64,000 nt of DNA from Niastella populi (GTDB lineage Bacteria; Bacteroidota; Bacteroidia; Chitinophagales; Chitinophagaceae), in NCBI RefSeq assembly GCF_002078015.1, contig NZ_LWBP01000089.1, positions 62,001-126,000 of the forward strand. Direction: 5' to 3'. A model generated the notes under the pieces. That model searched no databases and had not been told where the DNA came from. It was given only the letters and a program-made list of their open reading frames with translations. The translations under genes were made by a program, and so were the position numbers. Of the stretch, positions 4,124-61,633 are shown in pieces (the stretch's first letter is position 1; the number at the start of each line of letters is the position of its first letter).

Positions 4124-4256
4124 AGCCGCTGCAAGCTACACGCTGCAAGCTGCAAGCCGAAAGCAAATACATCTTTCGCAATGAATGAGGTCAGCAATTA
4201 ATTGCGAGCCCCGAACAAAAGAACTATAAACCAAAAACTATAAACCATAAACTAAT
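4124..4256. repeat. Word array: GCTGCAAGC and AACCATAAACTA units
   Basis: Two arrays flank a short core. At 4124-4160 the word GCTGCAAGC/TACACGC recurs three to four times; at 4220-4256 a 7-base word (ACTATAAACC, AACCATAAAC) recurs. The second array ends one base before the stop codon (4257-4259) of the minus-strand Fe-S protein gene. Confidence 0.6.
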
Positions 4257-4982
4257 TTACCACCCGCTCGCCAGTACATCAGCAATATGCATCGTTTGCA
4301 AATCCATCCCTTTTTTACGGATATGCCCGTCGATATGCATCAGACACGACAAGTCGGTTGATATAATACATTCAGCCCCGGTATTCTTTGCATTGATGCT
4401 TTTCTGATCGGCCATCCCAATAGAAATAGGGTCGAACTTTACCGCAAAGGTGCCGCCAAAACCGCAGCAGGTCTCTACATCGTTCATTTCTATCAGTTCC
4501 AGCCCCCTTACATTGCTCAATAATTTCCGCGGCTCCTGTTTGATCTTGCATTCGCGTAAACCGGCGCACGAATCGTGATAAGTTGCTTTGGTATATAAAC
4601 TGGCGCCCACGTTCTCTATCTTCAGCACATTTACCAGGAAATCGGTAAACTCGAACGTTCTTTCTTTCAGTTTATTTACCTCCAGGATCTGTTGGGTATT
4701 CTCAAATAACGTGGAGTAATAATTTCTTACAAAACCTACACAGGAAGCGCTGGGGGCAACCACATAATCGGTGCCTGTACCGCTGAAATCCTTTATGAAT
4801 TTGGAGCAAACTTCGCGGGCATCGTCCCAGAACCCGGCATTGAAAGCGGGTTGTCCGCAACAGGTTTGATTGGTATTGTAAGTTACGGTGCACCCTGCTT
4901 TTTCCAGCACTTTAACCATATTGAAGGCCGTGTTGGGAAACAACTGGTCTACGAAGCAGGGAATAAATAATTGAACCTTCAT
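4257..4982 (-). CDS. (Fe-S)-binding protein, LutA/LldE family
   Basis: A 241-residue cysteine-rich protein with two CCG domains: TCCGQPAFNAG in the first half and TCCGFGGTF in the second. The N-terminus (MKVQLFIPCFVDQLFPNTAF) is characteristic of LutA/LldE/YkgE, a subunit of the iron-sulfur L-lactate dehydrogenase complex; CCG domains bind an Fe-S cluster or heterodisulfide-type site. An upstream in-frame ATG at 5042 would add 20 residues without family similarity and lies inside the ribH terminator hairpin, so ATG 4982 is preferred. The usual partners LutB and LutC are not nearby, so the protein may work with distant subunits or another dehydrogenase. Confidence 0.87.
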   Translation of the reverse strand: MKVQLFIPCFVDQLFPNTAFNMVKVLEKAGCTVTYNTNQTCCGQPAFNAGFWDDAREVCSKFIKDFSGTGTDYVVAPSASCVGFVRNYYSTLFENTQQILEVNKLKERTFEFTDFLVNVLKIENVGASLYTKATYHDSCAGLRECKIKQEPRKLLSNVRGLELIEMNDVETCCGFGGTFAVKFDPISIGMADQKSINAKNTGAECIISTDLSCLMHIDGHIRKKGMDLQTMHIADVLASGW

Positions 4983-4999
4983 GGCAAATCCCCTTTTAA

Positions 5000-5046
5000 A
5001 TGAAAACAGGGTGAACGCTGTGCCGGCGGGCAAAGCATTCACCCTG
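5000..5046 (-). terminator. Terminator-like hairpin after ribH
   Basis: On the minus strand AGGGTGAATGC and GCGTTCACCCT pair (one mismatch) around a GC-rich loop and are followed by GTTTTCATTT. The hairpin starts 6 bases after the ribH stop and overlaps the leader of the Fe-S gene, so it could attenuate read-through into that gene. Confidence 0.5.
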
Positions 5047-5051
5047 CAAAT

Positions 5052-5558
5052 CTATAAATGATTTTTAAACGACTGTGAAAGTGCGATCATTTTCAACGCA
5101 GTGATGGCGGCTTCTTCGCCCTTGTGGCCATGTTTTCCGCCGATGCGCTCCTGCGCCTGCTGATCGTTATCTACCGTTAAAATGCCGAAAATAATAGGCA
5201 CGGGTAAGGTCAGGTTCAATTGGGTGATGCCGGTTGTTACCCCCTGGCATACATACTCAAAATGCGGGGTATCGCCCCGTAATACGCAGCCGAGGGCGAT
5301 AAAGGCGTGCGGACGGTCGTCTTTGTATTTATTCGCATCCCAGTAACTTTTTATTCCAAAAGGAATTTCAAAAGCGCCGGGAACGGTAACCACCTTTACA
5401 TCTTTAACACCTGCGCGTTCAAAGATGGTATGACAGCCTTTTTCAAGTTCATCGATTATAGCAGCATTCCATTCGGTGCGTACTATAACAACACAGGCAT
5501 TCGTGTTTAGAATGCCTGTATCTATCTGTAATAACTTACTATTGCTTACTTCAGCCAT
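5052..5558 (-). CDS. ribH: 6,7-dimethyl-8-ribityllumazine synthase
   Basis: Lumazine synthase, the penultimate step of riboflavin synthesis: it condenses 5-amino-6-ribitylaminouracil with 3,4-dihydroxy-2-butanone 4-phosphate. At 168 residues it has the usual length. Substrate-binding segments are clear: VPGAFEIPFGIKSY, ALGCVLRGDTPHFEYVCQGV (with the general-base His of the DTPHFEY loop) and the C-terminal GKHGHKGEEAA. It lies downstream of a membrane TPR gene on the same strand, an order often seen in Bacteroidetes, and is followed by a terminator-like hairpin. No other rib gene is present. Confidence 0.97.
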   Translation of the reverse strand: MAEVSNSKLLQIDTGILNTNACVVIVRTEWNAAIIDELEKGCHTIFERAGVKDVKVVTVPGAFEIPFGIKSYWDANKYKDDRPHAFIALGCVLRGDTPHFEYVCQGVTTGITQLNLTLPVPIIFGILTVDNDQQAQERIGGKHGHKGEEAAITALKMIALSQSFKNHL

Positions 5559-5562
5559 GTTA

Positions 5563-5623
5563 TTCAGTTTCCGGTTGCCGGCATCCAGTTCCCGGGTCCT
5601 GGAAACTGGTAACAGGTAACCAA
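5563..5623. repeat. Word array: CCGGTTGCC / GGTAACC type
   Basis: Short words built on CCGGTTGCC and CCAGTTCC on the left face GGAAACTGG and GGTAACC on the right, forming an imperfect inverted repeat. The right end touches the stop codon (5624-5626) of the minus-strand TPR gene. Similar words occur at 7614, 19412, 42121 and 61158. Confidence 0.55.
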
Positions 5624-6319
5624 TTAATTCAGATCTCCTAACTTTCCTAAGTGCTTATCAACCTCAAAAGCACGCTGACTATTAGGATATTTATCCTTTA
5701 TCTGGTGCAACAGATCGATGGCTTCCTTGTTCTTGCCCAGTTCCTGGCTCAGCATGGCTGCGCGGAACAGGTATTCAGGAGAATTTGCATCATCCTTATC
5801 GAACATGGTACCGGCTTTCTTATAATAATCTATGGCTTCCTGTTTTTTGCCCAACTCTGCATGCGCATCGCCCAGTAAACCGGCTGTGCGTAATTCAAAT
5901 AGTACCTGATCGGTTGAGAAATCTTTCAACTGTTTGATGGCGTTATTGAAATCGCCCAGTTGCATATAGCAGGCGCCGGCATAGAATTTAGCCAGGTTAC
6001 CGGCTTTTGTTCCGCCATGAGCCGAGATCACTTTCAGAAAACCGGGGCTCTTTCCATCACCGTTCAAAGCGAGTTTGAAAGAATCCTGTCTGAAATAATC
6101 TTCTGCTTTCCAGATGGCTTCGGCCGCTTTTGCTTCAGCCGGGCCTTTAAAGAAATTGTTATAGGCAAAGTAACCGCCGATAACCACAACCAGACCAACC
6201 ACTGCGTAGGTAATAAGTTTGTTGTTCTTACCCCAGAAATCGCGGGCTGAATCCACCACTCTCTCTTCGGTTGATTTTTCAATCGGTTGTTCAGGCACTT
6301 GTTTTACTTCAGTGGCCAT
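5624..6319 (-). CDS. Membrane-anchored tetratricopeptide repeat protein
   Basis: A 231-residue protein with one transmembrane helix at about 37-57 (LITYAVVGLVVVIGGYFAY) after a charged cytoplasmic N-terminus, then a periplasmic region with four or so TPR units (for example KFYAGACYMQLGDFNNAIKQ, AGLLGDAHAELGKKQEAIDYY, LFRAAMLSQELGKNKEAIDL). The layout matches YfgM-like proteins that scaffold periplasmic folding at the Sec translocon; that parallel is inference. It lies 65 bases upstream of ribH on the same strand and downstream of pdhA. Confidence 0.85.
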   Translation of the reverse strand: MATEVKQVPEQPIEKSTEERVVDSARDFWGKNNKLITYAVVGLVVVIGGYFAYNNFFKGPAEAKAAEAIWKAEDYFRQDSFKLALNGDGKSPGFLKVISAHGGTKAGNLAKFYAGACYMQLGDFNNAIKQLKDFSTDQVLFELRTAGLLGDAHAELGKKQEAIDYYKKAGTMFDKDDANSPEYLFRAAMLSQELGKNKEAIDLLHQIKDKYPNSQRAFEVDKHLGKLGDLN

Positions 6320-7395: not shown

Positions 7396-7739
7396 AGTAT
7401 AAAAATTTGAAGTTTTAACCCTGCCAACGCCCCCAACTTTCATCGGACCAGGCTGGCAAAGGCGGGGGCAAAGATAGGGTAAGAAAGGGAAATATGGAAT
7501 GCGGAATTGATATTTTAAGCCGGATTGAGGATTTGATTGCCAGTTGTTTGGGACGAAAATGGGCCTGAAAGCTAAATTTCGGGCCGAATTCCAGTAAAAA
7601 TGACACAATAGCATGGTTACCAGGTACCGGTTGCCGGGTTCCCCGAGCGAGCAGAATGGTAAACAGTGACTATATTGCGCGGCGAATGGCAACTGAACAA
7701 CTGAACAACTGAACAACTGAACAACTGAATAACTGAATA
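7396..7739. repeat. Divergent pdhA-recF intergenic region with word arrays
   Basis: 344 bases between the divergent starts. At 7614-7650 there is a CCGGTTGCCGGG-type cluster (GGTTACCAGG, TACCGGTTGCC). At 7689-7739 the 8-base word CAACTGAA recurs about six times almost perfectly, ending at the TTG start codon of recF. The A/T-rich part 7480-7600 presumably holds the pdhA promoter; no clear -7 box was found. Confidence 0.7.
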
Positions 7740-17962: not shown

Positions 17963-18346
17963 AAATAATTCTTACGTCAATATTAGGAAAAAGCTGTAAG
18001 TAAAAAGCCTAAAGCAAATACAAATTAGATCCTTCCGTTTGCCTTTCTCATTCTGCTTTAATCTGTATTCCTGTATTCGCGTTCAGCTGTATTCGCTTTT
18101 AGCTGTAGGCTGTATTACTGTATTCCTGTATTCGCTTACAGCTTACGGCTTGCAGCTGTATTCGCTTTCCGCTTTAGCCTTTAAGCTGTATTCCTGTATT
18201 CGCTTACAGCTTACGGCTTGCAGCTGTATTTGCTTTCCGCGTTAGGCTGTATTACTGTATTCCTGTATTCGCTTACAGCTTACGGCTTGCAGCTTGCAGC
18301 TGTATTCGCTTTCCGCTTTAGCCTTTAAGCTGTATTCCTCTCTTCC
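17963..18346. repeat. Long composite array of GCTGTATTCGCTT-type words
   Basis: From 18039 to about 18340 the words CTGTATTC, GCTGTATTCGCTT, CTTACAGCTTACGGCTTGCAG and CCGCTTTAGCC recur. A unit of 60-70 bases built of these words is present about three times with small changes. The array stops just before the stop codon of the permease gene (18347-18349). 17963-18038 is plain A-rich leader of the SMP-30 gene. Unit lengths are irregular and there are no unique spacers, so this is not a CRISPR. Confidence 0.75.
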
Positions 18347-20735: not shown

Positions 20736-20895
20736 GCTGAACGCATAACGCATAACGCGCAATACTTTTAAAGTATGTCATTCGTTGTGCATTGAATACT
20801 GAGCGCCCGAAGTTCACCTGCTTTGGGTATAAGAACAGTACGCCCGGCCACTTTCCTGAAATTCCGAATTTTCCGCGTTGAGCGTTCCGCATCGA
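20736..20895. repeat. Word array: GAACGCATAACGCATAACGCG inverted element
   Basis: The left arm repeats the 7-base word AACGCAT three times; the right arm ends CCGCGTTGAGCGTTCCGC. The core includes GAGCGCCCGAAG and TACGCCCGGCC. It is the divergent-gene member of the AACGC subgroup, sharing words with 16942-17062 and 30326-30436. Confidence 0.55.
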
Positions 20896-21914: not shown

Positions 21915-21999
21915 GGTAGCAACAACAAACCACAAACCATAAACCACAAACCCCTGTCGCGGTAGCAACCACAAACAACAAACCATAAACCACAAACCA
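21915..21999. repeat. Word array: AACCACA type with GCGGTAGCAAC blocks (two direct copies)
   Basis: Two direct units, each GCGGTAGCAAC followed by 7-base words (AACAACAAACCACAAACC, ATAAACC, ACAAACC). The array ends exactly at the stop codon of the minus-strand FKBP lipoprotein gene (22000-22002). Same subfamily as 37796, 49256 and 53106. Confidence 0.7.
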
Positions 22000-23996: not shown

Positions 23997-24046
23997 GAAA
24001 CGGCAGCAAAGTTGCGGAAATAAAGCACAATGGCCAAAACCAGTTC

Positions 24047-24198
24047 TGAGTTTTAAGTTTTAAGTTATAAGTTTTAAGTTATAAGTATTCCTTGTTCATA
24101 AATCCAGGCTATATTCAAGGCCTTCCAAAGCTCCTACAGGCCAGTTTTTGAGAACCATGATCTTTGAACTTAAAACTTTGAACTTAGAACTAAAAACT
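24047..24198. repeat. Word array: GTTTTAA/GTTATAA inverted element
   Basis: The left arm repeats the 7-base word GTTTTAA or GTTATAA five times from 24051; the right arm (24168-24198) repeats GAACTTA/AAACTTT. The ~80-base core has CCTTCCAAAGCTCC and a half-palindrome GGCCAG. The right arm also supplies the -33 TTTG of the ndk promoter. Confidence 0.65.
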
Positions 24199-24206
24199 TA
24201 CTTTTG
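24177..24206 (+). promoter_or_regulatory. ndk promoter (TTTG-N18-TACTTTTG)
   Basis: TTTG at 24177-24180 and TACTTTTG at 24199-24206 are separated by 18 bases, matching the Bacteroidetes -33/-7 consensus. The -7 box is 21 bases before the ndk ATG. The -33 box is part of a repeat-array word. Confidence 0.6.
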
Positions 24207-25762: not shown

Positions 25763-26191
25763 ATTTGCTTGCTTTTACCCTGTCTGGTGAATATGGTTCT
25801 CTTTTTTTTATTATACTTGCATAAATTAACTAAACCCGTATGAAAAACTGCCAACCCCTGTTATCTGAGCATCTCCTCACCTATTTCTTATGTAAGGTTC
25901 CCGGCTACGTTCATTGAAAGGAAAAACCGCGATACGTAGCGTTGAAAAGATACCGGGAGGCAGCATATCCCAAAGTACATCAACAAAGCTAATCCGGCTT
26001 GGTTGATATTGAAAAATAAATTTACAAAATCAGGGAAAGGGAATAACGAATCAGACACGTATATTCCTTAATAATATCGAATATCGAATTTTAAATAACG
26101 AATATCGAAGTGAGCCCCCCAGGTTAAGCGTTCCTTCTATATTTAAAATTCTACATTCTATATCCGATGTTCATAATTAATTAATTGCTTA
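25763..26191. other. Divergent intergenic region with nested stem and CGAATATC array
   Basis: 429 bases between two divergent starts. TCCCGG/CCGGGA (25899-25904 with 25953-25958) encloses CTACG/CGTAG (25905-25909 with 25935-25939), a nested stem that may be a leader or small RNA. From 26064 to 26188 an A/T-rich array uses AATATCG and CGAATATC words on the left and TTCTATAT, TTCTACA on the right. No gene is evident. Confidence 0.5.
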
Positions 26192-28123
26192 ATGCACCTG
26201 TATTTTAAACGCCTGGTTTGTAGCTGTATTTGCCTGGCTATAACAGAACTGTGTGCGGCGCAAACTACCCTGCCCGCGTTTGGCGAGATCACCGCCGAAG
26301 AACAATCCCTTACCGAATGTTCCTTCGATAAGGAAGCCGATGCCGTTGTATTACTCGATGAAGCGTCGGCCGACCATAACGATCAATATAATCTTATTGT
26401 CAACCGCCGTAAGAGGCTGAAGGTACTGAAACCGAAAGGGAACCGCCACGGCGATATTTCCATCAGCTACCTCAGCAAGGACGATATCGAATACATCAGC
26501 GATATTGAAGCCTACACCTGGAATTTCCGCAGCGGTAGCGGGCCTGAAATAAAAAAAGTTACGCCATCCGCCATCTACCGCCAAAAAGTAAACGACAGGG
26601 TATCTGTTGTACGTATTGCCATGCCCGATGTACAGGTGGGCAGCATCATAGAATATAAATACATCACCACCTCAAAAAGTTATGCGTATCTCGATGACTG
26701 GTACTTCCAGACCGAGCTGCCCGTAATACACAGCCGCTTTTCGCTGGTGGTAATGCCCAACTACGAGTTTGCCTACCGGGTATACAAAACCGAGCTGTTG
26801 CCCATTTCCATAAAACAGGAGAAGAATTCGGGCCGCATTTATTTCGGGATGGACAGCATCGCCGGTTTGCGCGATGAGCCTTTTATGGATGCGGAAAAAG
26901 ATTACCTGCAGCATGTGGAGTTTCAGCTCTCGGGCTACCAGGGCACATTTGGCGGCACTACAAAATACATGACCACCTGGGCCGAGCTAACGCGCGAACT
27001 GATGTCGAACCCCGGCTTTGGTGTACAGTTGAACAAGAACATAGCTGTTGGCGACGAGTGGACGAACCGGTTGAAAGCAATTCCTTCGCCCTATGAAAAA
27101 ATGTCATATATCTACAACTTCGTTTACAAGAACTATACATGGAACGGCCTCGGCGGCATCGCCTCTTCAAGCGGGGTAAAAGATACCTGGGAAAAAAGAA
27201 AAGGCAGCAGCAGCGACATCAACCTGATGCTCATTAACCTGCTGCAGGAAGCCAAACTGGAGGCCTATCCCCTGCTGGTAAGCGAACGCGGTCATGGCAA
27301 AGTGAACCCTGAATACCCGTTCGTAGATCAGTTCAATAAAGTACTGGCGTATGTTCTTATCGGTGATCAGAAATACGTACTCGACGCCGCAGGCGCCTGG
27401 ACTCCGCCATTTATGATCCCGTTCTCCGTGATCAATACAAAAGCATTTATCGTAAACCGTAAGAAAGGCGGCATTATAGCCCTTACCGAAAATGATAAAA
27501 AAGACCGGAACTTCGTGAATATTTTCGCCACTGTAGATGAAAGCGGGCAAATGAAAGGTTCGGCAACCATCGAGAGCTACGAGTATGCCCGCCTTAACCG
27601 GCTGCGCGCCTGGCAACGCGATAAAGACCGCTTCAAAGAGAACTTTTATACATCTTACCAGGCCGGGTTAACAATAGACAGCCTGCACTGGAAGAACATG
27701 GATAACGATTCCCTGCCTGCGGTTCAGGAATTCGGATTTTCCATTCCGCCAACAGCCAGCGGCGATTACAAACTCATCAACCTGAACCTGTTCAGCGGTA
27801 TTGCGAAAAACCCTTTCATTTCGAATATCAGGTTCACCAACATCGATTACGGGTGTTTGCAGTCATATACCATTGTTGAGAACATTGAACTGCCTGCCTC
27901 ACTGAAGGTGGAGAACCTGCCCAGGAATGTGCGCATGATCATGCCAGACACCAGCATCACAATGAGCCGGCAATTACAGGTAAATAGCAATATACTTCAG
28001 GTAAAATATACTATAACCACCACGCGCAGCGTATTTACTGCCGACGAATATGAATACGTAAAGGACTTCTACAAAAAAATGTCCGAGATCATGAATGAGC
28101 AGGTGGTGTTGAAGAAAATGTGA
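26192..28123 (+). CDS. DUF3857 protein with inactive transglutaminase fold (1)
   Basis: A 643-residue exported protein (signal ending ELCAAQT). A DUF3857 domain (about 60-215; EAYTWNFRSGSGPEIKKVTPS, IRMPDVQVGSIIEYKY-like VRIAMPDVQVGSIIEYKYI) precedes a transglutaminase-like fold (about 270-400) and a C-terminal beta domain. The catalytic Cys of GDCK is Ser (KGSSSDINLML) and the His is Lys (QFNKVLAYV), while the Asp strand (VLDA) remains, so it is most likely non-enzymatic. First of three tandem paralogues. Its TGA stop is the first unit of a GATAATGT array. Function unknown; family members are often linked to surface or polysaccharide processes. Confidence 0.88.
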   Translation: MHLYFKRLVCSCICLAITELCAAQTTLPAFGEITAEEQSLTECSFDKEADAVVLLDEASADHNDQYNLIVNRRKRLKVLKPKGNRHGDISISYLSKDDIEYISDIEAYTWNFRSGSGPEIKKVTPSAIYRQKVNDRVSVVRIAMPDVQVGSIIEYKYITTSKSYAYLDDWYFQTELPVIHSRFSLVVMPNYEFAYRVYKTELLPISIKQEKNSGRIYFGMDSIAGLRDEPFMDAEKDYLQHVEFQLSGYQGTFGGTTKYMTTWAELTRELMSNPGFGVQLNKNIAVGDEWTNRLKAIPSPYEKMSYIYNFVYKNYTWNGLGGIASSSGVKDTWEKRKGSSSDINLMLINLLQEAKLEAYPLLVSERGHGKVNPEYPFVDQFNKVLAYVLIGDQKYVLDAAGAWTPPFMIPFSVINTKAFIVNRKKGGIIALTENDKKDRNFVNIFATVDESGQMKGSATIESYEYARLNRLRAWQRDKDRFKENFYTSYQAGLTIDSLHWKNMDNDSLPAVQEFGFSIPPTASGDYKLINLNLFSGIAKNPFISNIRFTNIDYGCLQSYTIVENIELPASLKVENLPRNVRMIMPDTSITMSRQLQVNSNILQVKYTITTTRSVFTADEYEYVKDFYKKMSEIMNEQVVLKKM

Positions 28124-28392
28124 TAATGTGATAATTCGATAGTGCTTGCCCGTCCGTAGCCTTGGCGAAGGCGGGAAAGGCGCCGCCATCGGCGGCAATA
28201 AAACCAGGGGTTTATTTGGGGATCAAAAGTGAATCAGCGGTGCTTACGCAAAGTAAGGCATTGGAATGTTCATTTACAATGGCAGGTGTGCCGCCATTGG
28301 TGAATGCCATTTCACAGCTTTCCCCGATGAAGTCGGGGGTTTGCCGTATCACAACCGCCGGTTCACGAAAAATTAAACCATAATAAACCGAT
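28119..28392. repeat. GATAATGT array arm and GC hairpins between DUF3857 genes
   Basis: At 28119-28141 the words TGTGATAA, TGTGATAA and TTCGATAG start inside the stop codon of the first DUF3857 gene. No second arm is seen. Further on are a GCCTTGGCGAAGGC hairpin (28158-28172) and CCCCGATGAAGTCGGGG (28322-28338). No gene was found in these 269 bases. Confidence 0.55.
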
Positions 28393-30330
28393 ATGTTCAA
28401 GTCACTGCTCCTGGTTATTTGCCTCACCACCTCGCTTTCCCTTCTTGCCCAGAAAGACAGCGATGTTCCCGGCTTTGGAAAAATTGACAAAGCCGAACTG
28501 GAAATGAAAACCTGCGATTTTGATGAAAAGGCCGAAGCCGTTGTGCTTTTCGATGTAGGCGAACTGTATTTCGATCTCACGTCCATGTCGGGCAGCATGC
28601 AGCTCGAGCGCCATATACGCATCAAGATCCTGAAAGATAAAGGAAAGAACCAGGCCGACATTCGCCTGCCCTATGTGAGCTACCGCAACATAGAGCACAT
28701 AAAAAATCTTACTGCCCAAACCTATAACCTCGACGCTGCTGGTAATATCGTTACCACCAGGGTAGAAAAAAACCTTATTTACGAAAAGCCCATCGATAAA
28801 TACCGCAAAGAACAGGTGTTCACCTTCCCCGATGTGCAGGCGGGCAGCATTATAGAATACAAATGGTCGCAGGTATGGAGCAGCTTTGCGCTGGAAAACT
28901 GGTATTTTCAACGAAGCATACCGGTAAAATACAGCCGCTACCGTACCGATTTCCCCAACGAGATAGAAATATACGCCTCCCCGTTTTGCGTACTTCCGTA
29001 TGAAAGCAAACAGCATACAAAGGGCACACGCATTATACATCATTATTCCATGAAAAACATTCCGGCCCTGCGCGACGAACCCTATATCAGTTGCGATAAA
29101 GACTACCTGCAACGGATCGAGCTCAGGTTACAGGCCATCAAATGGCCAACCTACCGCGAAAACCTGGTGAAATCATGGCCGCAGCAGATCAAAGGCCTCA
29201 TGGAAGATGAAGACTTTGGCATACAGCTCAAAAGAAATATTCCCCGCACCGCCGACCTCGAAGCGCAGTTAAAGAACCTTACCGATCCATATCGAAAAAT
29301 GGTTGTCATTCATGAATATGTTCGCCGGAATATGGAATGGAACGGGTTGAGCAACATCTGGGCCCTGAACGGCGTACGGGCTGCCTGGAAAGATAAAAAA
29401 GGCACCAGCGGCGAGATCAACCTGATACTGGTGAACCTGCTTAAAGACGCCAACCTGAAAGCGCACGCCATACTGGTAAGCACCCGCGACCACGGAGTTG
29501 TAACGAGCTCCCTTGCCGATGTGCGACAGTTCGATAAAGTAATGGCCTATGTTGAGATCGGCGAGCAGGTTTACGTGCTTGACGCCACCGAAAAGAATAC
29601 CCCTTCGCGTCTGATACCCATGGATGTCATGTTCTCTGAAGGACTGGTGATTGAAAAACCCGAAACCCTCGAATGGGGCTGGCGGCCGTTGTGGAATGAA
29701 AATACAATGCTGAAGAACACCATAATTGTACAGGCAAATATCGACGAAAGCGGCGTAATGACTGGCAGGGCTTCGGCTTTCAGCTATGATTACGACCGGG
29801 TACAACGCGTTACGGATGCAAAAAAAGACCAATCGAAATTCCTCGAAAAATACTTTCACGACGGGAACCAGAACGTAAAGGTCGACAGCCTTGTTTTGGA
29901 AAACCTCGAGGACGATACCCTGCCCCTCATTCAGAAAATACAGTTCAATATGCCGGTGAGCGCCTCGGGCGATTACAAGTACTTTTCAACCAACCTTTTC
30001 ACCCGGCTCGAGAAAAACCCGTTTGTGGCCGACTCGCGGTTTTCCGACATTTTCTTCGGCGTGAACCAGTCATATAACCTGGTGGCCAACATAACAATTC
30101 CTGAAGGATACGCGTTTGAAGCCCTGCCGAAGAACATGCGAATGATTATGCCCGATACCAGTATTGCCATAACCCGGCGGCTGGTGGCAGAAAACAACCA
30201 GTTGGCGGTAAGGGTGAACCTGGAATTTAAAAAACCGTTCTTTACCGTTCAGGAATACCCGGATTTTAAGGAATTTTACAAACAACTCTTTGCCGTGTTG
30301 AGCGAGCAGATCGCCATTAAAAAACGCTAA
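28393..30330 (+). CDS. DUF3857 protein with inactive transglutaminase fold (2)
   Basis: A 645-residue paralogue of the preceding gene, with signal peptide (LSLLAQ), DUF3857 domain (TYNLDAAGNIVTTRVEKN, FTFPDVQAGSIIEYKW) and transglutaminase-like region. As in the first paralogue the Cys is Ser (KKGTSGEINLILVN) and the His is Lys (QFDKVMAYV), with the VLDA Asp kept. Similar sizes, shared PALRDEPYISCDKDYLQ and MIMPDTSI blocks, and matching C-termini show a duplication. Likely a structural or binding protein in the periplasm or outer membrane. The stop lies in an AACGC-type array. Confidence 0.88.
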   Translation: MFKSLLLVICLTTSLSLLAQKDSDVPGFGKIDKAELEMKTCDFDEKAEAVVLFDVGELYFDLTSMSGSMQLERHIRIKILKDKGKNQADIRLPYVSYRNIEHIKNLTAQTYNLDAAGNIVTTRVEKNLIYEKPIDKYRKEQVFTFPDVQAGSIIEYKWSQVWSSFALENWYFQRSIPVKYSRYRTDFPNEIEIYASPFCVLPYESKQHTKGTRIIHHYSMKNIPALRDEPYISCDKDYLQRIELRLQAIKWPTYRENLVKSWPQQIKGLMEDEDFGIQLKRNIPRTADLEAQLKNLTDPYRKMVVIHEYVRRNMEWNGLSNIWALNGVRAAWKDKKGTSGEINLILVNLLKDANLKAHAILVSTRDHGVVTSSLADVRQFDKVMAYVEIGEQVYVLDATEKNTPSRLIPMDVMFSEGLVIEKPETLEWGWRPLWNENTMLKNTIIVQANIDESGVMTGRASAFSYDYDRVQRVTDAKKDQSKFLEKYFHDGNQNVKVDSLVLENLEDDTLPLIQKIQFNMPVSASGDYKYFSTNLFTRLEKNPFVADSRFSDIFFGVNQSYNLVANITIPEGYAFEALPKNMRMIMPDTSIAITRRLVAENNQLAVRVNLEFKKPFFTVQEYPDFKEFYKQLFAVLSEQIAIKKR

Positions 30331-35468: not shown

Positions 35469-35634
35469 AATGATGAATATTGAATATCGAATATTCAATG
35501 ATGAAGTTGAATACAGGGGAAATGAGAATTTAAAAATGAAAAAGTAAATACAGCGGAAAGTAAACCCTGCACTTGGTTTTTCACTTCGACATTCTACATT
35601 GAACATTCAACATTCGTTATTCTGTATCCCCTTG
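35469..35634. repeat. Word array: TGAATATTGAATATCG inverted element
   Basis: Right after the tamL stop the words GATGAATATT, GAATATC and GAATATTCAATGATG repeat; the opposite arm at 35586-35630 uses TTCTACATTGAACATTCAACATTCG. The ~70-base core is A/T-rich. The right arm ends near the stop of the converging truB gene (35617), which it overlaps by a few codons. Confidence 0.6.
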
Positions 35635-37795: not shown

Positions 37796-37920
37796 CTATT
37801 AAACGGTTTGTGGTTTATGGTTTGTTGTTTGTGGTTCTTTAATCTCAGGCTGTCCGATAATTTTCGGGCAGCATTAATTGCGGCAGCAACAACAAACCAC
37901 AAACTACAAACAACAAACAT
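37796..37920. repeat. Word array: AACCACA type, GCGGCAGCAAC inverted element in the MoxR operon
   Basis: The left arm has five 7-base words (GGTTTGT, GGTTTAT, GGTTTGT, TGTTTGT, GGTTCTT); the right arm has GCGGCAGCAAC then AACAAACCACAAACTACAAA and ends at the moxR stop (37921). The core holds its own stem, GCTGTCCGA with TCGGGCAGC. The arms can pair imperfectly over ~35 bases. It lies between co-directional moxR and DUF58 genes. Confidence 0.75.
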
Positions 37921-46246: not shown

Positions 46247-46585
46247 ACGAAGGACTGAAACGACAGACGGCAAACGTGAAAGGAACCCGTTTTTCTAACC
46301 TCGCTTCATACCGAAATCTCAAGAAAGTTCAGCAAGGTTGTCCTTTCCGTAAATAATGACAGACCAACTGTTTTTTGAAATTATTAATACCTGTAGTGTA
46401 CTTTCACACTATAGACAAAAGCTTTTTTTCTATTGTGAGCGTGAAATTGTTAAAAAAACAATCAACCCGGCTTATACCATCATCACACTGCAGCAACGGA
46501 GCGAGGCACCGGAATTAAGCCCAACACTCAGTCGAGAGGTATATTTGCCGTTTCACGTTTCACGTTTTACGCTTAATGTTTGCAA
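46247..46585. promoter_or_regulatory. Leader of the FadL-family gene with a TATATTTG box and CACGTTT words
   Basis: 339 bases with no supported gene. TATATTTG (46540-46547) matches the TAnnTTTG -7 box 38 bases before the ATG, with no clear -33. At 46550-46578 the words TTTCACG, TTTCACG and TTTTACG form a short array. TAGTGT/ACACTA (46394-46399 with 46406-46411) is a small inverted repeat. Confidence 0.4.
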
Positions 46586-48142: not shown

Positions 48143-48313
48143 AAGGCAACGAGGCAACGAGGCAACGAGGCAACGAGGCAACGAGGCAACGAGGCATAAA
48201 GGCAAGTAGGGCCCGAAGCAGCCCGACGAGAGTGAGGCATGAATTTATATATTAGTCCCGAACCATGAACTGTGAACTATGAACTGTGAACTATGAACTG
48301 AACAACTGAACAA
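48141..48313. repeat. GGCAACGA array and GAACTAT/CAACTGAA array
   Basis: The word GGCAACGA recurs six times from 48147, beginning inside or just past the porin stop codon. From 48262 to 48311 the 7-base words GAACTGT and GAACTAT alternate, then switch to the 8-base word CAACTGAA (also present at 7689-7739), ending at the miaA stop (48314-48316). The switch from 7- to 8-base periodicity in one array is notable. Confidence 0.75.
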
Positions 48314-49210
48314 CTAATTAACCACCTTCTCAACTATATTCTCAACAGCATCAGGTGAAAACCATTGCATATTTGCATCCCGTTTAAACCAAGTCATTTG
48401 CCGTTTGGCGTATTGCCGGGTATTGGTCTTTATCTGATCGATGGCCTGCTGCAGTGTTATTTTTCCGTCGAGGTATTCGAACAGCTCGCTGTAACCTACG
48501 GTTTGTAGCGCATTCAATTGTTTATAAGGAACCAGTTGTTTTACTTCATTCAACAACCCCTGCTCCATCATCTGATCAACCCGGGTATTGATACGCGCAT
48601 GTAATTCGGGTTTGGGCAGTTCGAGCCCCAGTTTTATGATCCTGAACGGGCGCGCTGCTTTTTTTCCCTGCTGAAAAGTGCGTATAGACTCGCCAGTTGC
48701 CTGTTTTACTTCCAGTGCACGGATCAGCCGCTGGGGGTTCTGCACCTCTCCTGTTGCGTAATAAAGCGGGTCCTGCTCCTGTACCTGTTGTTGTAACCAG
48801 GCCAGTCCCGCCCGCTCGTATTGCGCTGTAATGGCCTGCCTGATGTTTATAGAAACAGGCGGCATGTCATCGAGCCCTTCGCAGAACGCTTTTATGTACA
48901 AACCGGTGCCGCCGGTTACAACAGCCAAATCGTGCTGCTGAAATATTTCATCAGCCGCCTGTAAAGCATATTGCTCAAAAACGGCAGCGTTTACATCATC
49001 GTGTATGGAATGGGAATTGATAAAATAGTGATGCACCTGTTGCAGTTCGCTGTGGGAGGGTTTGGCAACGCCTATTGTCATTTCCTTAAAGCACTGACGG
49101 GAGTCGGCTGAAATGACGGCGGTATTGAAATGCCTGGCTACGGCTATGGCTGCGGCGGTTTTGCCTACGGCGGTAGGCCCCGCAATAATTACACAAGTTT
49201 TTTCAGTCAT
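48314..49210 (-). CDS. miaA: tRNA dimethylallyltransferase
   Basis: Adds the dimethylallyl group to N6 of A37 in tRNAs reading UNN codons. The 298-residue protein has the P-loop GPTAVGKT (residues 11-18), ISADSRQCFKEMTIGVAKPS, VTGGTGLYIKAFCEGL and the C-terminal TRQYAKRQMTWFKRD block. ATG 49210 (MTEKTCVIIAGP) is chosen over 49240. It follows the pRiA4b-like gene across an AACCACA-type element on the same strand. Confidence 0.97.
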   Translation of the reverse strand: MTEKTCVIIAGPTAVGKTAAAIAVARHFNTAVISADSRQCFKEMTIGVAKPSHSELQQVHHYFINSHSIHDDVNAAVFEQYALQAADEIFQQHDLAVVTGGTGLYIKAFCEGLDDMPPVSINIRQAITAQYERAGLAWLQQQVQEQDPLYYATGEVQNPQRLIRALEVKQATGESIRTFQQGKKAARPFRIIKLGLELPKPELHARINTRVDQMMEQGLLNEVKQLVPYKQLNALQTVGYSELFEYLDGKITLQQAIDQIKTNTRQYAKRQMTWFKRDANMQWFSPDAVENIVEKVVN

Positions 49211-49255
49211 ATTGTTTGCCTGAGCTTGTAAAGAACTCAAAACAAGATTCAGTTT

Positions 49256-49364
49256 ATGTTTTTTTGTTTATGGTTTATTGTTCTTCCAGCGGGTAGTTCG
49301 AAAGAAATTTCGAGTTTCAAAGCGCGGCAGCAACCACAAACTATAAACCATAAACTATAAACTC
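49256..49364. repeat. Word array: AACCACA type, GCGGCAGCAAC inverted element
   Basis: The left arm (TTTGTTTATGGTTTATTG) and right arm (GCGGCAGCAAC then CACAAACTATAAACCATAAA) flank a core with its own CGAAA/TTTCG stem. The right arm ends at the stop of the minus-strand gene at 49365. Same orientation relative to the upstream gene as 37796-37920. Confidence 0.7.
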
Positions 49365-49937: not shown

Positions 49938-50341
49938 ACTTAAAATTTCAGGTTCTTTATTCTTTTGTTTATTCCCCGTGCTTAATGCCGGGTATATTCG
50001 AAAATTAATTCCCTATATTTTTAGTGAGCAAATATTTATCCAAATATTTGCAAAGTGCCAGCCGTTTCTATAGCCGGTTGCACCTACCTTTCAATTGCCT
50101 CCGTGTCAAAAATAAGACAATTCCCCAACTATCAAAGTATGCAATTTAAGGTGCATTTGCATAGCAACAAAATGCCCGAACATACACAGTGATACCGTTT
50201 TATGCAAATAAAGCAAAAGCTGCGCCGGGAAATTACCGCATATGGGCCAAAATTCGATTTCTGATTTTGAGATTTCAATATGTTCAGCAGATTAATAAAT
50301 TGCGTAATCGCTAAATCTCAAAATCCCGAAATCAAAAAATC
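49938..50341. repeat. Intergenic region with GATTTTGAGATTTC inverted element
   Basis: 404 bases. At 50247-50341 the words GATTTCTGATTTTGAGATTTC and CTAAATCTCAAAATC / CCGAAATCAAAAAATC form two arms around a short core with ATGTTCAGCAGATTAATA, ending at the stop of the CCA-adding enzyme gene (50342-50344). The rest (49938-50246) holds no recognisable gene and presumably the promoter of the pRiA4b-like gene. Confidence 0.6.
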
Positions 50342-51922: not shown

Positions 51923-52023
51923 TATTCTTGTCCTTATTGCAAATGTACTATTTTCGTGGATCGGCAGTCGGCAATCGTAAATCGGCAATCCCCGACCTCA
52001 TCGGGGGCGGTAAGCAGGAATTC

Positions 52024-52135
52024 CTTATCAACCTCTATCAACTTATCAACCTTTCAACTATTACTCAGCCTGCCGCACAGAGAAACCTTTATCAACTCTA
52101 TCAACTTGTCAACTTCTCAAACGCTCAACCAACTG
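52024..52135. repeat. Word array: CAACTTAT/CAACCTTT type
   Basis: CTATCAACTTATCAACC and TTTCAACTATT at 52030-52064, then TTTATCAAC, TCTATCAAC, TTGTCAAC at 52086-52125 form a one-sided array whose right part runs into the 3' end of the glycosyltransferase gene; its stop codon (52109-52111) lies within the array. Confidence 0.6.
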
Positions 52136-53104: not shown

Positions 53105-53105
53105 T

Positions 53106-53225
53106 CTAATTTGTTTGTGGTTTGTGGTTTGTAGTTTGTGGTTGCTGCCGCACTTGAGGTTCAAAATTAATAGCGAACTTCCTTTAAAAGAACAACAAAC
53201 CACAAACAATAAACTACAAACTATT
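53106..53225. repeat. Word array: AACCACA type, GCGGCAGC element in reverse orientation
   Basis: The left arm has GTTTGTG, GTTTGTG, GTTTGTA, GTTTGTG then GTTGCTGCCGC; the right arm has AACAACAAACCACAAACAAT then AAACTACAAA and ends at the tsaC stop (53226-53228). The conserved GCGGCAGCAAC block is on the far side from the upstream gene, opposite to 37796 and 49256, so the element can insert or invert in both orientations. Confidence 0.72.
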
Positions 53226-56204: not shown

Positions 56205-56213
56205 GAATTAATA

Positions 56214-57125: not shown

Positions 57126-57196
57126 TCAATGTGATAATTCGATAACTAGATAATGTGATAATGGAATACAGGTTCAACCATTCCATTATCAACTAA
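57126..57196. repeat. Word array: GATAATGT with GATAATGGAAT hairpin
   Basis: GTGATAAT, TCGATAAC, TAGATAAT and GTGATAAT precede a perfect 11-base inverted repeat (GATAATGGAAT with ATTCCATTATC, 12-base loop), 2 bases after the EamA stop. The same GATAATGGAATACAG motif is at 57612 and 59756. The rest of the 626-base gap to 57751 has no recognised gene; it holds the next element and a terminator. Confidence 0.7.
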
Positions 57197-57582: not shown

Positions 57583-57757
57583 ATTAGCTGATTTGCTAAT
57601 GTGCTAATTCGATAATGGAATACAGTATCGGGGATGCTGACGCGGTTATAAATGTTGACGCAAAAACTGCTTACCCGCTGCTTAGCGTACTGTTCCGGAA
57701 AATGAGCATGCCGAACCTAAAGAATTATCACATTAGCATATTATCACATTATCACAT
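57583..57757. repeat. Word array: GATAATGT inverted element with 111-base core
   Basis: GCTAATGTGCTAATTC (57595-57610) pairs with GAATTATCACATTAGC (57722-57737), 15 of 16 bases. GATAATGGAATACAG follows the left arm. The right arm runs into the stop codon (57752-57754) of the minus-strand outer-membrane protein gene. Confidence 0.72.
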
Positions 57758-58696
57758 TGATCTTCCGCATCTCTTCTGATAGTACCCGCAACTTTTCTTC
57801 GGCTTTTCTGCCGGTGCTGCTGCCGGGGTTTGTTTCGGTTGCACAATTACCTTTTGCATGGCAGGCGCCGGCTTTTGAGGAGCCCCTGCTTTTTGCGCTA
57901 CGGGTTTGCTTTTCGTAAAATTCAATGGCATACCTACGGTAATATTCCAGGCCGATGCAGAAGACGATAATTGCGTATTCAGTTCTTTGCCATCGAGCGG
58001 CGTGGTCAATGATTCATTATTCAGATTTCCAATACCCCTCAGGTATTGAATACCTACCACATACTTGTTCACATCGCCTTTGGCAAATGCCAGGTTAACA
58101 CCGGTCATAAAGGCCGAGGTCCAGTTACCGGCGCTGTACTGGTAAACAGTTTCGTTCGATCTCATGATACTTGTGATGGCGGTTTGCGGATCAGGTACAA
58201 ATGCCATTCCCACAAATGGCTGAATGCGCATATTCATCACTGGTTTTTTGGCGGCTGCTGCCTGCGCCATCATCATTTTACGTGCAGCGCATGGATTGCC
58301 GGCTTTTACCGGCGCTGTTTTTGCTTTGGAATGCTTTCCCAAAGCAATGGCTTTGCTGCTAACCTGGTAGCCGGCTTCAAGCCGGAGTTTCCAGTCGCCA
58401 TTAGAAGAAGAAAATTCTTTGTCACCTGTTTCAGGATTGGTGAATTCATATGTTACAAGGGAACGGTTCGAAGCCAGGCCTACAAACGGCCCATGCCGTT
58501 TATTAAAAAGGTAATCTGCCCTGAGGCCAACCTGAGGTGAGAAATTTGCACTCATGGGATTAATGCGGGAAGTGTTGTTGTACTTTACACAGGTGAAAGC
58601 TTGTTCAATACCCACTCTGGGTGTAACGGAGAGTTGGGCATTCGTTGCGAACGCACACGCAACGAATACCAGACCGGTTAACGCTGCTTTTCTCAT
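57752..58696 (-). CDS. Outer-membrane beta-barrel protein
   Basis: A 314-residue secreted protein with signal peptide (about 1-20, FVACAFATNAQL). The body has the alternating strands of a small outer-membrane barrel (VTPRVGIEQAFTCV, FSPQVGLRADYLFN, WKLRLEAGYQV, MRIQPFVGMAFV, FMTGVNLAFA, YVVGIQYLRGIGNL, AWNITVGMPLNF), then a Pro/Ala-rich linker (PAPAMQKVIVQPKQTPAAAP) and a cysteine-containing end (KKSCGYYQKRCGRSM). A surface or peptidoglycan-binding role is possible; no family name is certain. The stop lies in a GATAATGT array. Confidence 0.75.
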   Translation of the reverse strand: MRKAALTGLVFVACAFATNAQLSVTPRVGIEQAFTCVKYNNTSRINPMSANFSPQVGLRADYLFNKRHGPFVGLASNRSLVTYEFTNPETGDKEFSSSNGDWKLRLEAGYQVSSKAIALGKHSKAKTAPVKAGNPCAARKMMMAQAAAAKKPVMNMRIQPFVGMAFVPDPQTAITSIMRSNETVYQYSAGNWTSAFMTGVNLAFAKGDVNKYVVGIQYLRGIGNLNNESLTTPLDGKELNTQLSSSASAWNITVGMPLNFTKSKPVAQKAGAPQKPAPAMQKVIVQPKQTPAAAPAEKPKKSCGYYQKRCGRSM

Positions 58697-59003
58697 AGCT
58701 TAGTTTTTAAAAAGTGTCTTATAAGTTACGACATAAAGCGGGAAAGAAAAATTAGAATACATGAGCGGCGTGGCGGCGGGCGCCGGGTTGATAAGTTGAA
58801 AAGTTTAAAAGTTGATAAAGGAAATACTCAAATGTTCAACCTGACAACTATTAATCAATATGATGCACAGAAATCCTCTATCAACAATATCAACTTTATC
58901 ACCTCTATCAACTTTTTTTACCATCCTTGTCCAAATCAACCAACCCCGTTTGTTATATAAGTATAACATTTATATTCAATAACAAATTAAAATTTGAAAA
59001 AAA
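58697..59003. repeat. Divergent region with GTTGATAA/TTATCAAC arrays
   Basis: 307 bases. The left words GTTGATAA, GTTGAAAA, GTTTAAAA and GTTGATAAAG (58790-58822) face CAATATCAACTTTATCACC and TCTATCAACTTTT (58885-58916). The A/T-rich stretch 58920-59003 presumably carries the promoter of the first YCII gene (TATAACATTTAT near 58962-58973, one base off the -7 consensus). Confidence 0.6.
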
Positions 59004-59387: not shown

Positions 59388-59729
59388 ATGAAGGACTACT
59401 TACTTGTTTTCCGGGCCGATTTTAGCCTGATGCCCAACCGCACCCCCGAAGAAATGCAGGCGATGTCGAAACGCTGGATGGACTGGATCGGCAGCATTGC
59501 AGCGCAAAACAAATTAGCCGGTGTCGGTAACCGCCTCGAAGGAACGGGCAGGGTGCTCAAAGGCGACAGTACCATCACCAATGGCCCTTATGCGGAAATA
59601 AAGGAATCGATCGGCGGTTACTCTATCGTAAAAGCAGATTCTTACGAAGCGGCCATCGAACTGGCAAAGGGCTGTCCCATTTTAAAACAGGGTGGCAACG
59701 TGGAGGTGAGAGAAATAAGTGAAAATTAA
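59388..59729 (+). CDS. YCII/DGPF-domain protein (2)
   Basis: A 113-residue paralogue of the gene before it, sharing MDWIGSIAAQNKLAGVGNRL, SIGGYSIVKADSYEAAIELAKG and the C-terminal VEVREIS. The signature is altered from DGPF to NGPY (ITNGPYAEIKES). It starts 30 bases after the first YCII stop, so both are co-transcribed with, or upstream of, the sigma factor. A GATAATGT inverted element separates it from the sigma gene. Confidence 0.9.
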   Translation: MKDYLLVFRADFSLMPNRTPEEMQAMSKRWMDWIGSIAAQNKLAGVGNRLEGTGRVLKGDSTITNGPYAEIKESIGGYSIVKADSYEAAIELAKGCPILKQGGNVEVREISEN

Positions 59730-59890
59730 TTAGCTAATGTGATAATTCGATAATGTGATAATGGAATACAGTTTGGTGGGTGCTTGCGCGTGAGCTTACG
59801 TTGAGCTTACATTTAGTAGGATCTGCTGAACATAAAGCATTAGCACAATAGCTAATCAGCTAATTATCGAATTATCACATTATCACATTT
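59730..59890. repeat. Word array: GATAATGT inverted element in front of the sigma gene
   Basis: GTGATAATTCGATAAT (59739-59754) pairs perfectly, 16 bases, with ATTATCGAATTATCAC (59863-59878), 108 bases apart. The left arm starts 2 bases after the YCII stop and the right arm ends 6-8 bases before the sigma-factor ATG, so a hairpin would include its ribosome-loading region. Confidence 0.75.
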
Positions 59891-59896
59891 GCCTTT

Positions 59897-61120
59897 ATGG
59901 AATTAATACCGCATTTATTCAGAACCGAATACAGGAAGATCATAGCCGTATTATGTAAACGTTTTGGCTTTGATGAAATTGAAACAGCCGAAGACATTGC
60001 CAGCGATACCTTTATGAGCGCCACGCAAACCTGGGGTTTGCAGGGCATTCCCGAACATCCTGTGGCGTGGCTGTACACCGTGGCCAAAAACAAAGCGCGG
60101 AATTTTCTGCACCGGCAGGCCACCTTCAACAACAAGGTGATTCCCGAAACGGCCCTGCGCGAAAATGCATCCACACTTCCGGAATACGAGATCGATCTTT
60201 CGCCGCAGAACATTATCGACAGCCAGTTGCAAATGATGTTTGCCATCTGCCACCCGTCAATTGCGCCAGAAGCCCAAATAGGTTTATCGCTGCGCATCCT
60301 TTGCGGTTTTGGTATTGAAGAAATTGCCGACGCCTTTCTAACCAAGAAAGAAACCATCAACAAACGCCTGTACCGCGCCAAAGAAAAATTAAGAGAAGAA
60401 AATATTCCCATAGCACTTCCCGGTATGGCCGAAATAGACGACCGCCTCGCCATTGTGCTGGCAACGCTTTACCTGTTGTTCAGCGAAGGATATTATTCCA
60501 TCAGCAATAACAGAACCGTTAGAAAAGAACTGTGCTTCGAGGCCATGCGGCTTTGTTATATGCTGGTAGAAAATAAACATACCAACAAACCGCCGGTAAA
60601 CGCATTGCTTTCACTCATGTGTTTTCATGCCTCGCGTTTTGAAGCCCGGTTGAACCGGAATGGCGAAATGATCTTATACGAAGAACAGGACACCACCCTG
60701 TGGGATGCCGACCTCATAAGCAAAGGCGGTTACTTCCTGAACCAGTCTGCCACCGGTACCCAACTCTCGCGTTATCACCTCGAAGCTGCCATCGCTTACT
60801 GGAATACGCAAAAGGACGATACCAAAGAAAAATGGGAAAACATTTTACAACTCTATAACCAGTTGCTGCAAATCGAATACGCTCCCATTGCTGCGCTTAA
60901 CCGCACTTTCGCCCTCTCCAAAGCCAATGGCAAAGAGGAAGCCATTATTGAAGCGGAAAAACTAAACCTGACCAACAACCATTTTTATTATACGTTACTG
61001 GGTGAACTATATACGGGGATCGACAATACGAAAGCAAAGCAGCATTTTGAAAAGGCGCTATCGCTGGCGAAAACACTAACGGATAAACAAACCATTGAAA
61101 AGAAGATCGATAAGATCTGA
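59897..61120 (+). CDS. ECF42-type RNA polymerase sigma factor
   Basis: A 407-residue sigma factor. Sigma2 (about 1-75; FRTEYRKIIAVLCKRFGF, AWLYTVAKNKARNFLHRQA) and sigma4 (about 110-165; LRILCGFGIEEIADAFLTKK, ETINKRLYRAKEKLRE) are followed by a ~230-residue C-terminal extension with TPR-like helices (LCFEAMRLCYMLVENKHTN; YCHFEKALSLAK-like QHFEKALSLAKTL). This layout, with linked YCII/DGPF genes and no anti-sigma factor, marks ECF group 42, whose C-terminal extension regulates the sigma activity. ATG at 59897 fits the usual start. Confidence 0.92.
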   Translation: MELIPHLFRTEYRKIIAVLCKRFGFDEIETAEDIASDTFMSATQTWGLQGIPEHPVAWLYTVAKNKARNFLHRQATFNNKVIPETALRENASTLPEYEIDLSPQNIIDSQLQMMFAICHPSIAPEAQIGLSLRILCGFGIEEIADAFLTKKETINKRLYRAKEKLREENIPIALPGMAEIDDRLAIVLATLYLLFSEGYYSISNNRTVRKELCFEAMRLCYMLVENKHTNKPPVNALLSLMCFHASRFEARLNRNGEMILYEEQDTTLWDADLISKGGYFLNQSATGTQLSRYHLEAAIAYWNTQKDDTKEKWENILQLYNQLLQIEYAPIAALNRTFALSKANGKEEAIIEAEKLNLTNNHFYYTLLGELYTGIDNTKAKQHFEKALSLAKTLTDKQTIEKKIDKI

Positions 61121-61633
61121 TAGTTACCCCGCTCCGCGGGTTACAGGCAATTACAATACATGCTCACCTGTAACCAACAACCAGCAACCGTAACCGGCAA
61201 CCGGTGCCCAGTAACCGCCAACTGGCAACCTGGCAACCAGCAACCGGCAACCGGTCACTTCCCCCTCCATCTTCCGGTATTCGCATACATAAACCTGCCA
61301 TTGGCATTCATTTAAATGCAGCCATTCTACCAATAAGGTAATTTTGTATTGCCGTGAATAAGTTGACAAATCGACAAATAAGTAACCAGAAAGAAGAACG
61401 TAGACAGAGAAGCGTAGTTGAAACACCGATAAAAATGATCAAAATCAACTTATATCCCTAAAAATTGAACCCGGCCTTCAAACAAGGCGCGCAAAATTGT
61501 TCTTGCGGTATCTTGCGTTACCAGATTGGTTAATCACTCTTTTGCCTAACCGGGAATAACCCATGTTGGCAACAGACCGATCCGCCTGATCGGGCCGGGG
61601 CCTGTTATTGTTCTTATCACATTAACCATTAAA
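61121..61633. repeat. Intergenic region with AACCGGCAACC array
   Basis: 513 bases. From 61158 to 61258 the words CAACCAGCAACCG, TAACCGGCAACCGG and CAACTGGCAACC recur about ten times with small changes, one-sided. CCCGC/GCGGG (61128-61132 with 61136-61140) is a small hairpin right after the sigma stop. The remaining bases hold no gene that I can support and presumably the promoter of the patatin gene. Confidence 0.65.

Follow-up and report, generated by a model that had tools for sequence, protein, structure and literature searches.

Intergenic arrays of 7- and 8-base words in a Chitinophagaceae genome as possible arms of short, dispersed, mobile-like elements

The intergenic spacers of a 64,000-bp stretch of the Niastella populi genome (contig NZ_LWBP01000089.1, positions 62,001–126,000; G000:C89:62001-126000), hereafter the window, meaning the whole stretch analysed, carry tandem arrays of short words repeated with a period of 7 or 8 bp. 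Such arrays, multiples of these periods included, are present in 21 of the 42 window spacers of at least 50 bp, which they strongly shape. They are read here, at a probability of roughly one half, as the arms of short (about 60–190 bp), dispersed, mobile-like extragenic elements copied by an activity acting in trans. The genome, 8.61 Mb in 263 contigs, is placed as a congener of Longitalea within the Chitinophagaceae, the closest named relatives found by protein identity being Longitalea luteola and L. arenae (86%). The first-pass annotation of the window had proposed a mobile or slippage-driven element class with a single architecture. A shared architecture is borne out by inverted and polar arms, a four-unit mode in three word families, recurring cores, copy numbers specific to lineages and turnover of the words, whereas the copying or moving activity is something we infer from these features.

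Genes were called with a simple codon-model script and no published gene finder, while arrays were detected by lag matching at a score of at least 10, a threshold of our own choosing. Within the window 36 segments of period 7 or 8 were found, 35 mostly intergenic and one mostly coding, compared with a mean of 0.09 and a maximum of 2 segments in 100 order-2 Markov simulations of the window spacers. A stricter threshold left 13 intergenic arrays of period 7, five of period 8 and eight of the multiple 14, none of them coding, and no array of periods 4–6, 9–13 or 15. The same preference is evident in a sample of 864 kb from the same genome, which holds 98 intergenic and 4 coding arrays of period 7, 58 and 1 of period 8, and 7 and 1 of period 9; other short periods gave 0–4 arrays in all, excepting the multiples 14, 16 and 21, with zero at periods 4, 5, 10 and 13. 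Many of the same window arrays were recovered by Tandem Repeats Finder, and GTTTGTGGTTTGTGGTTT, with up to 2 mismatches, has 514 matches in the genome against 16 for its reversed control (here, as in the search with the 31-nt arm pattern below, overlapping matches inside one long array are counted separately). At a looser threshold 205 arrays were detected in the 864 kb, which extrapolates to about 2,000 per genome. The arrays of 7–8-base words between genes, as described in the earlier annotation, are thus confirmed, their density being approached neither in simulated spacers nor in genes (4 + 1 coding arrays of periods 7 and 8 in 864 kb).

For classification, 195 of these arrays, those with both flanking genes available, were clustered together with 124 arrays from a 340-kb sample of nine congeners, using a cut of 0.42 that was likewise chosen by us. 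The resulting 319 arrays fall into 27 clusters, 20 with at least three members and five singletons, the largest being GTTTNTN (54), TAATNNGM-like (42), GTTRACNN-like (23), GCTGAAA-like (20) and GATTTNNN (20). A typical word has 3–5 near-fixed positions and 2–4 freer ones. The notion that each locus has a word of its own therefore needs amending, as the words are many but recur as about 20 families. The commonest length of a period-7 array is 31 nt (38 of 193), equivalent to four units and a closing half-word. Unit counts confirm a mode of four in three families, although the conservation of the letters fixed in the search patterns is by construction. For GTTTNTN, runs of two, three, four, five, six, eight and seventeen units number 30, 7, 46, 3, 3, 1 and 1, where the reversed control gives 11 of two, 12 of three, 3 of four, and one each of five and seven. 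RATNNGNT has 11 runs of two units, 10 of three, 28 of four, 3 of five and 1 of seven, and AGCTNNA has 11, 8, 16, 2 and 1 of two to six units, with none in either control; the pattern GCNNAAN overlaps AGCTNNA and is not treated as a separate family. In other genera, among the matches listed (by eye, from 14 of 20 matching genomes), 68 arrays reach four or more GTTTNTN units and 59 of them stop at four, a tally for which the search pattern itself demands four units.

Arrays are frequently paired. Among 94 pairs of neighbouring arrays lying 15–200 bp apart, 51 join members of the same family, compared with a mean of 10.3 and a maximum of 19 in 1000 shuffles. With regard to orientation, inversion with the G-rich strand leading accounts for 63, the opposite inversion for 3 and direct order for 20, and 8 are ambiguous. 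The inverted paired-arm layout claimed for the window is therefore common but not universal, since only 38 of the 94 pairs are both of one family and inverted in the G..C sense. Polarity is also related to the genes. Of the 128 arrays lying no more than 15 bp from a stop codon, 115 have more G than C on the sense strand (71 of 80 in the own-genome sample, 44 of 48 in congeners), while array-free 3' flanks show no bias (125 G>C, 136 C>G). At the same distance from a start, 24 of 27 arrays have C>G (15 of 16 own, 9 of 11 in congeners); array-free 5' flanks, however, already show this bias (218 against 87), so that the start side is weak evidence and mainly the stop side is informative. At 78 loci of other Chitinophagaceae the stop side gave 26 arrays with G>C, 5 with C>G and 2 equal. 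Of arrays at most 8 bp from a stop, 22 of 71 in the own sample and 12 of 43 in congeners contain the whole stop codon. Array-bearing spacers in the own sample comprise 26 of 71 convergent, 78 of 269 co-directional and 12 of 78 divergent ones, and 25 of 40 convergent spacers in congeners. The divergent cases show that location is not restricted to 3' ends.

The best-defined family suggests an element rather than an array. It may be written as (GTTTNTN)4GTT, a core most often of 47–55 nt and an inverted arm, the core length applying to 14 of 24 entries (range 47–110; the set includes overlapping frames of two long arrays). Complete examples in the window are found at 53113–53223, with a 31-nt arm, a 47-nt core (GCTGCCGC...TTTAAAAG) and a second 31-nt arm, and at 37805–37919, where two 31-nt arms enclose 51 nt; at 49252–49363 the left arm has decayed and the core is reversed. 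Two inner borders are recognised, GCTGCCGC.. and CTTTA.., and the core is found in either orientation. The border and core GCTGCCGCGCTTTGAG..TTAAAG occur at several own-genome loci and in the genomes G002, G007 and G003, in diverged form in G001 and G004, while some members of the family have other cores. Inverted 31-nt arms are present in 21 distinct GTTTNTN elements; other families are less regular, with several TAATNNGM elements having GGAATACAG or a near form as left border. Borders and cores shared within a family indicate that the GTTTNTN element is a dispersed repeat family and more than an array.

Comparison between species demonstrates turnover. Across 27 orthologous spacers from up to 10 congeners, scored at a higher array threshold than the window features below so that weak or decayed arrays count as none, 19 carry an array in one species or more, and no spacer carries one in every species. 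Where both orthologues bear an array, the family is the same in 48 comparisons and different in 93 (species pairs not being independent); a further 66 comparisons set an array against a spacer under 40 bp and 237 against array-free DNA. The spacer at 53105–53225, for example, is occupied by a GTTTNTN element in five species and by a decayed copy in one more, and measures only 14–25 bp in four, whereas at 58697–59003 both flanks are conserved and the middle consists of other words or none across congeners. Copy number varies accordingly widely, the 31-nt arm pattern having 296, 250, 135, 90, 21, 4, 4, 1, 0 and 0 matches in 10 congeners (controls 0–7), and it is present in 23 of 195 genomes of the Chitinophagaceae, 3 of the 23 belonging to the own genus. 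Arrays are thus not fixed among congeners, with words that differ and some sites empty, and the full conservation that would characterise ordinary sequence among distant relatives was not encountered.

On the reading preferred here, an arm is a run of 7- or 8-bp units, each composed of a fixed and a free half-word, with four units as the mode in three families. The elements would be non-autonomous, with a putative trans-acting activity reading the fixed half-words and copying them. Replication slippage could later extend some arms to five or many more units, and selection against damage would confine the elements to intergenic DNA, often hard against stop codons. A more specific version, which we regard as unlikely, has a reader of the fixed 4–5 bases in four consecutive 7–8-bp modules write or move inverted, G-strand-polar arms at gene ends, swapping the word but keeping four modules, polarity and position across about 20 families. 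The four-unit arms of three families, together with word differences at orthologous sites, make a trans-acting reader a testable idea.

Several results weigh against copied elements. Unlike families make up 43 of the 94 neighbouring pairs (28 of 58 own, 15 of 36 in congeners), so that a single inherited element is insufficient without recombination. The polarity of pairs is weaker in other Chitinophagaceae (9 G..C, 4 C..G and 4 same or equal). The mode for GATTTNNN is three units (13 of 29), and the unit counts of GTTRAC and AGGCANNN have no four-unit peak. No target-site duplication was seen by eye in the element flanks printed, no base-exact empty site was found among the congeners compared, and the genomes compared include no close strain pair. 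Identity is 85.5% between the most similar congeners and 79.7% between the own genome and its nearest, too diverged for an insertion to be directly visible or single events to be told apart. Searches with nine word patterns found no autonomous copy in the 864-kb sample; two same-word arm pairs 250–4000 bp apart enclose no transposase, their contents being a Gate-domain protein in one case and a cytidylyltransferase-like together with an LPG-synthase-like protein in the other.

One alternative is replication slippage alone, by which short local seeds expand in situ into arrays, with 7–8 bp as the favoured unit length and without movement of any element. It accounts for the dominance of periods 7 and 8 and for very long runs (17 units), and in the spacer 58697–59003 G006 looks like a shortened form of the arrays of G003, and G001 like a shortened form of the left array of G004 (by eye). 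Slippage by itself, however, gives a falling distribution of unit numbers, which does not predict an exact mode of four in three families, nor does it explain recurrent families with common cores at unlinked loci, the same family either side of a core, or the G..C polarity of pairs; as the whole explanation it is possible but rather unlikely. The short spacers at 'empty' sites do hold GTTTG-like letters that might serve as local seeds, but the idea was rejected, such letters being present also in the leaders of a neighbouring spacer without a visible GTTTNTN array (by eye). G-quadruplex-forming repeats, as proposed for the GGGAATC heptamers of Xanthomonas, are favoured by the convergent pairs and by the strand polarity near stops and starts, both as described in the available part of that work (PMC4692102), and by the four GG tracts present in 60 of 319 arrays. 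Yet four GGG tracts occur in only 3 of the 319, and 123 have no GG whatever. With so few words having GGG tracts, quadruplexes are rejected for most families and are extremely improbable as the general cause. A system like that of repetitive extragenic palindromic (REP) sequences and their RAYT transposases could instead be driven by a single-copy Y1 (HUH) transposase gene, located at L161:1474-1902 (C145:137781-138206 of the own genome) and having aroG and aroB as its neighbours in each of the 10 congeners. All of these have exactly one strong Y1_Tnp match apiece (74–82 bits; nine further matches at 22–25 bits), and the spacer before the gene holds an AATGGTS- or AATCGKC-word array element in 9 of 10. 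This spacer may simply be permissive, as arrays occur in 9 of 10 species at another spacer too. Scored against NCBIfam, the single Y1 protein examined stays below the cut-offs for both RAYT (23 of 80 bits) and IS200 (51 of 55), and against solved structures it matches those named transposase or ISHp608 transposase. The order aroG-Y1-aroB recurs in 17 of 30 loci returned for the family, only four of the 17 with arrays in front and two of those four in the own genus, while the array-bearing genomes G112 and G108 match the protein distantly at best (27% and 41% identity), G108 at a locus without an aro match. With 13 of 17 aro-linked copies lacking an array in front, the gene is weakened as a universal driver. 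It looks domesticated and is a weak candidate for the mover, and a system driven by it is very improbable.

Functional RNA hairpins at 3' ends, acting as bidirectional terminators or mRNA stabilisers through pairing of the arms, were the function suggested by the first-pass annotation. Six window elements do fold strongly (z −2.1 to −9.9, two of them trimmed at one end), convergent spacers are the richest in arrays in both samples and divergent ones the poorest in the own sample, and in own-sample '--' spacers terminator-like hairpins occur in 0 of 30 with arrays against 9 of 73 without. Strong folding is nevertheless expected of any inverted repeats, and the arms do not co-vary. Complementarity to the partner arm is no higher than to foreign arms (0.867 against 0.876, n = 16; 0.839 against 0.846, n = 8). 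By position, in 22 rows representing 21 distinct GTTTNTN elements (one G004 element is doubled via L071 of the same assembly), pairing at position 4 is at chance level in register (42 of 88 cells, 36.9 expected), while variable position 6 pairs in only 19 of 88 against 32.7 expected, with 0 of 1000 shuffles as low. A named helix within the core is paired in 83.8% of cells, compared with 56–59% (at most 59.0%) for slid versions, but its covariation is 0.155 against 0.159 shuffled, and RNAalifold on 13 GTTTNTN cores returned 3 weak pairs. Pooled over all own-sample contexts, a terminator-like hairpin accompanies 16 of 116 spacers with arrays, compared with 36 of 302 without. Furthermore, the same gene pairs exist in congeners without any element, and arrays also lie in divergent spacers. 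Of ten loci in G112, which belongs to another genus, four combine a GTTTNTN arm with one of GTTRAC type, one has two GTTTNTN arms and five have one array in view; unlike words are therefore paired in 4 of 10. The absence of arm covariation together with unlike-arm elements indicates that arm pairing is not a maintained feature; of the hairpin claim, good folding stands and the function is not supported, leaving it distinctly improbable. As a separate observation, 69 of the 88 cells at GTTTNTN position 6 are not Watson-Crick between the arms, as if perfect inverted repeats were avoided. A comparison with Rfam 15 gave 0 matches in the window at its gathering score.

The remaining arrays of the window illustrate the variety of words and layouts. 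Unlike arms are seen in several elements, including that at 4128–4254, which joins a forward-strand left arm of the period-7 word GCTGCAA (4128–4164) to a reverse-strand right arm of AACTATA/AACCATA of the GTTTNTN family (4219–4254), and that at 48144–48315, which fills a convergent spacer with a left array of AGGCAACG (period 8) and a right arm of GAACTRT (7) and AACTGAAC (8). Inverted pairs comprise AGTTNTA at 24042–24200 (in a divergent spacer, with period 7 and some 70 bp of core), GAATNTT at 35468–35615 (period 7), and TAATNNGM with period 8 at 57583–57758 and again at 59727–59889, where the array contains the stop codon of the gene at 59388–59729. A GTTGATAA/TATCAACT element lies in a divergent spacer with conserved flanks (58787–58913), and at 51961–52128 an AATCGGC array (period 7) is followed by two GTTGATA-type arrays around a short core, whose scores of 10–10.5 are under the threshold of the orthologue comparison. 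Direct order is represented by two four-unit GTTTNTN-family arms on the reverse strand at 21921–21999, each preceded by the border GCGGTAGC. Forward-strand arrays further include a weak, GGTAACA-like one of period 7 whose score of 10 equals the threshold (5599–5620), a single period-8 array of six CAACTGAA units (7690–7739), a short period-7 AACGCAT array in a divergent spacer (20740–20758), a period-7 GAATATC array (26073–26109), a period-8 TAATGTGA array overlapping the stop codon of the gene at 26192–28123 (28114–28141), and a TAATGTGA arm with the border GGAATACAG at its end (57133–57163). On the reverse strand lie a CGTTTCA array of period 7 with right-arm polarity (46549–46574), a period-8 GATTTNNN array (50298–50341), a CAACCGG-type array of period 7 (61178–61254) and a compound of CTGTATTC (8) and GCTTACA/GCTTGCA (7) arrays (18063–18301), in which a 69-bp unit of CTGTATTC and GCTTACA words is itself in tandem about three times (18084–18294).

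Other observations concern the surroundings of the arrays. A linker, GAATACAG or AAATACAG, recurs at many array edges and between arrays of unlike words (for example at window 57164 and 59764 and at L039:17610-17920). The region 26192–30330 contains two neighbouring genes for DUF3857-domain proteins of about 645 amino acids. Of 8 spacers viewed from an own-genome cluster of 12, 7 contain (by eye) a palindromic dispersed repeat, GTGTGCCACAC..GTGTGGCACAC or a variant, which is unrelated to the word arrays; L069:1343-1440 and L040:11674-11789 are examples. G112 has a gene of about 200 amino acids in 15 copies at 63% identity or more, without a Pfam match; in the ten copies viewed the gene is followed immediately by a GTTT-type arm three or four units long, and arrays of differing words precede different copies. 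No match to this gene was found in four further genomes, of which three belong to the genus of the window genome.

Among known repeats, those of Xanthomonas offer the nearest parallel. The GGGAATC heptamers of Xanthomonas and GGGGA(T/C)T heptamers of Nostoc form intergenic 7-bp arrays, and the former include inverted 'convergent' pairs, 70 in Xcc and 75 in Xac, with the G-rich strand sense near stops, overlap with the stop included, and antisense just upstream of open reading frames, few (7–9%) lying between divergent ones, according to the available part of the paper (Rehm et al., 2015; PMC4692102). Intergenic 7-bp tandems, convergent pairs and strand polarity at stops and starts are common to both systems, the start side being weak evidence here, and the present elements are best read as related in layout to the Xanthomonas pairs. 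They differ from the one G-rich, quadruplex-forming word type presented in what is available of that paper in having about 20 families with periods 7, 8 and 9, mostly without GGG. Arms of four units in three families, cores peculiar to a family and words that change between orthologous spacers are further differences. TAACTGA heptamers are described from Beggiatoaceae, some cyanobacteria and five Bacteroidetes, two species of which also have other heptamer repeats in the same intergenic regions; in the genome studied, and as far as the accessible text goes, they are mostly direct, in 2–6 copies just upstream of starts, with one inverted case in 170 sets, and related heptamers are rarely repeated (MacGregor, 2015; PMC4679880). 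Dispersed intergenic 7-bp repeats with a patchy taxonomic spread are shared with the present arrays, whose pairs, unlike TAACTGA sets as given there, are mostly inverted.

REPs are palindromes of 20–40 bp, most tagged GTAG or CGTC, in the portion of the source available (PMC3733652). The elements resemble REPs and bacterial interspersed mosaic elements (BIMEs), as characterised there, in being short, extragenic, present in many copies, very variable in copy number between relatives and arranged in inversion, but their arms are tandem 7–8-bp words, and no protein, one Y1 protein being tested, exceeds the RAYT cut-off. By eye, and for the GTTTNTN family only, the arms and borders listed contain no 20–40 bp palindrome with a GTAG or CGTC tag. 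Miniature inverted-repeat transposable elements (MITEs) are short, non-coding and dispersed with inverted ends, all of which applies here; unlike MITEs, the present elements end in periodic arrays with free positions, and neither a target-site duplication, by eye in the printed flanks, nor an autonomous partner, in the 864-kb sample, was found. Three heptanucleotide repeats in Calothrix are mentioned through a citation in the available text of PMC4692102. Several heptamer words per genome are a further likeness, while inverted four-unit arms with a core are undescribed in that part of the citing text. These cyanobacterial repeats are presumably those named short tandemly repeated repetitive (STRR) sequences. 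No description of a multi-word array class in Bacteroidota was found in the open-access literature searched. If the architecture holds, slippage and quadruplex formation do not fully account for bacterial heptamer repeats. What was described for one G-rich Xanthomonas word, in the part of PMC4692102 available, namely polarity and inverted pairing, recurs here over about 20 words, and we conclude that what is new relative to known heptamer repeats is the combination of about twenty words with recurring cores and, in three families, four-unit arms.

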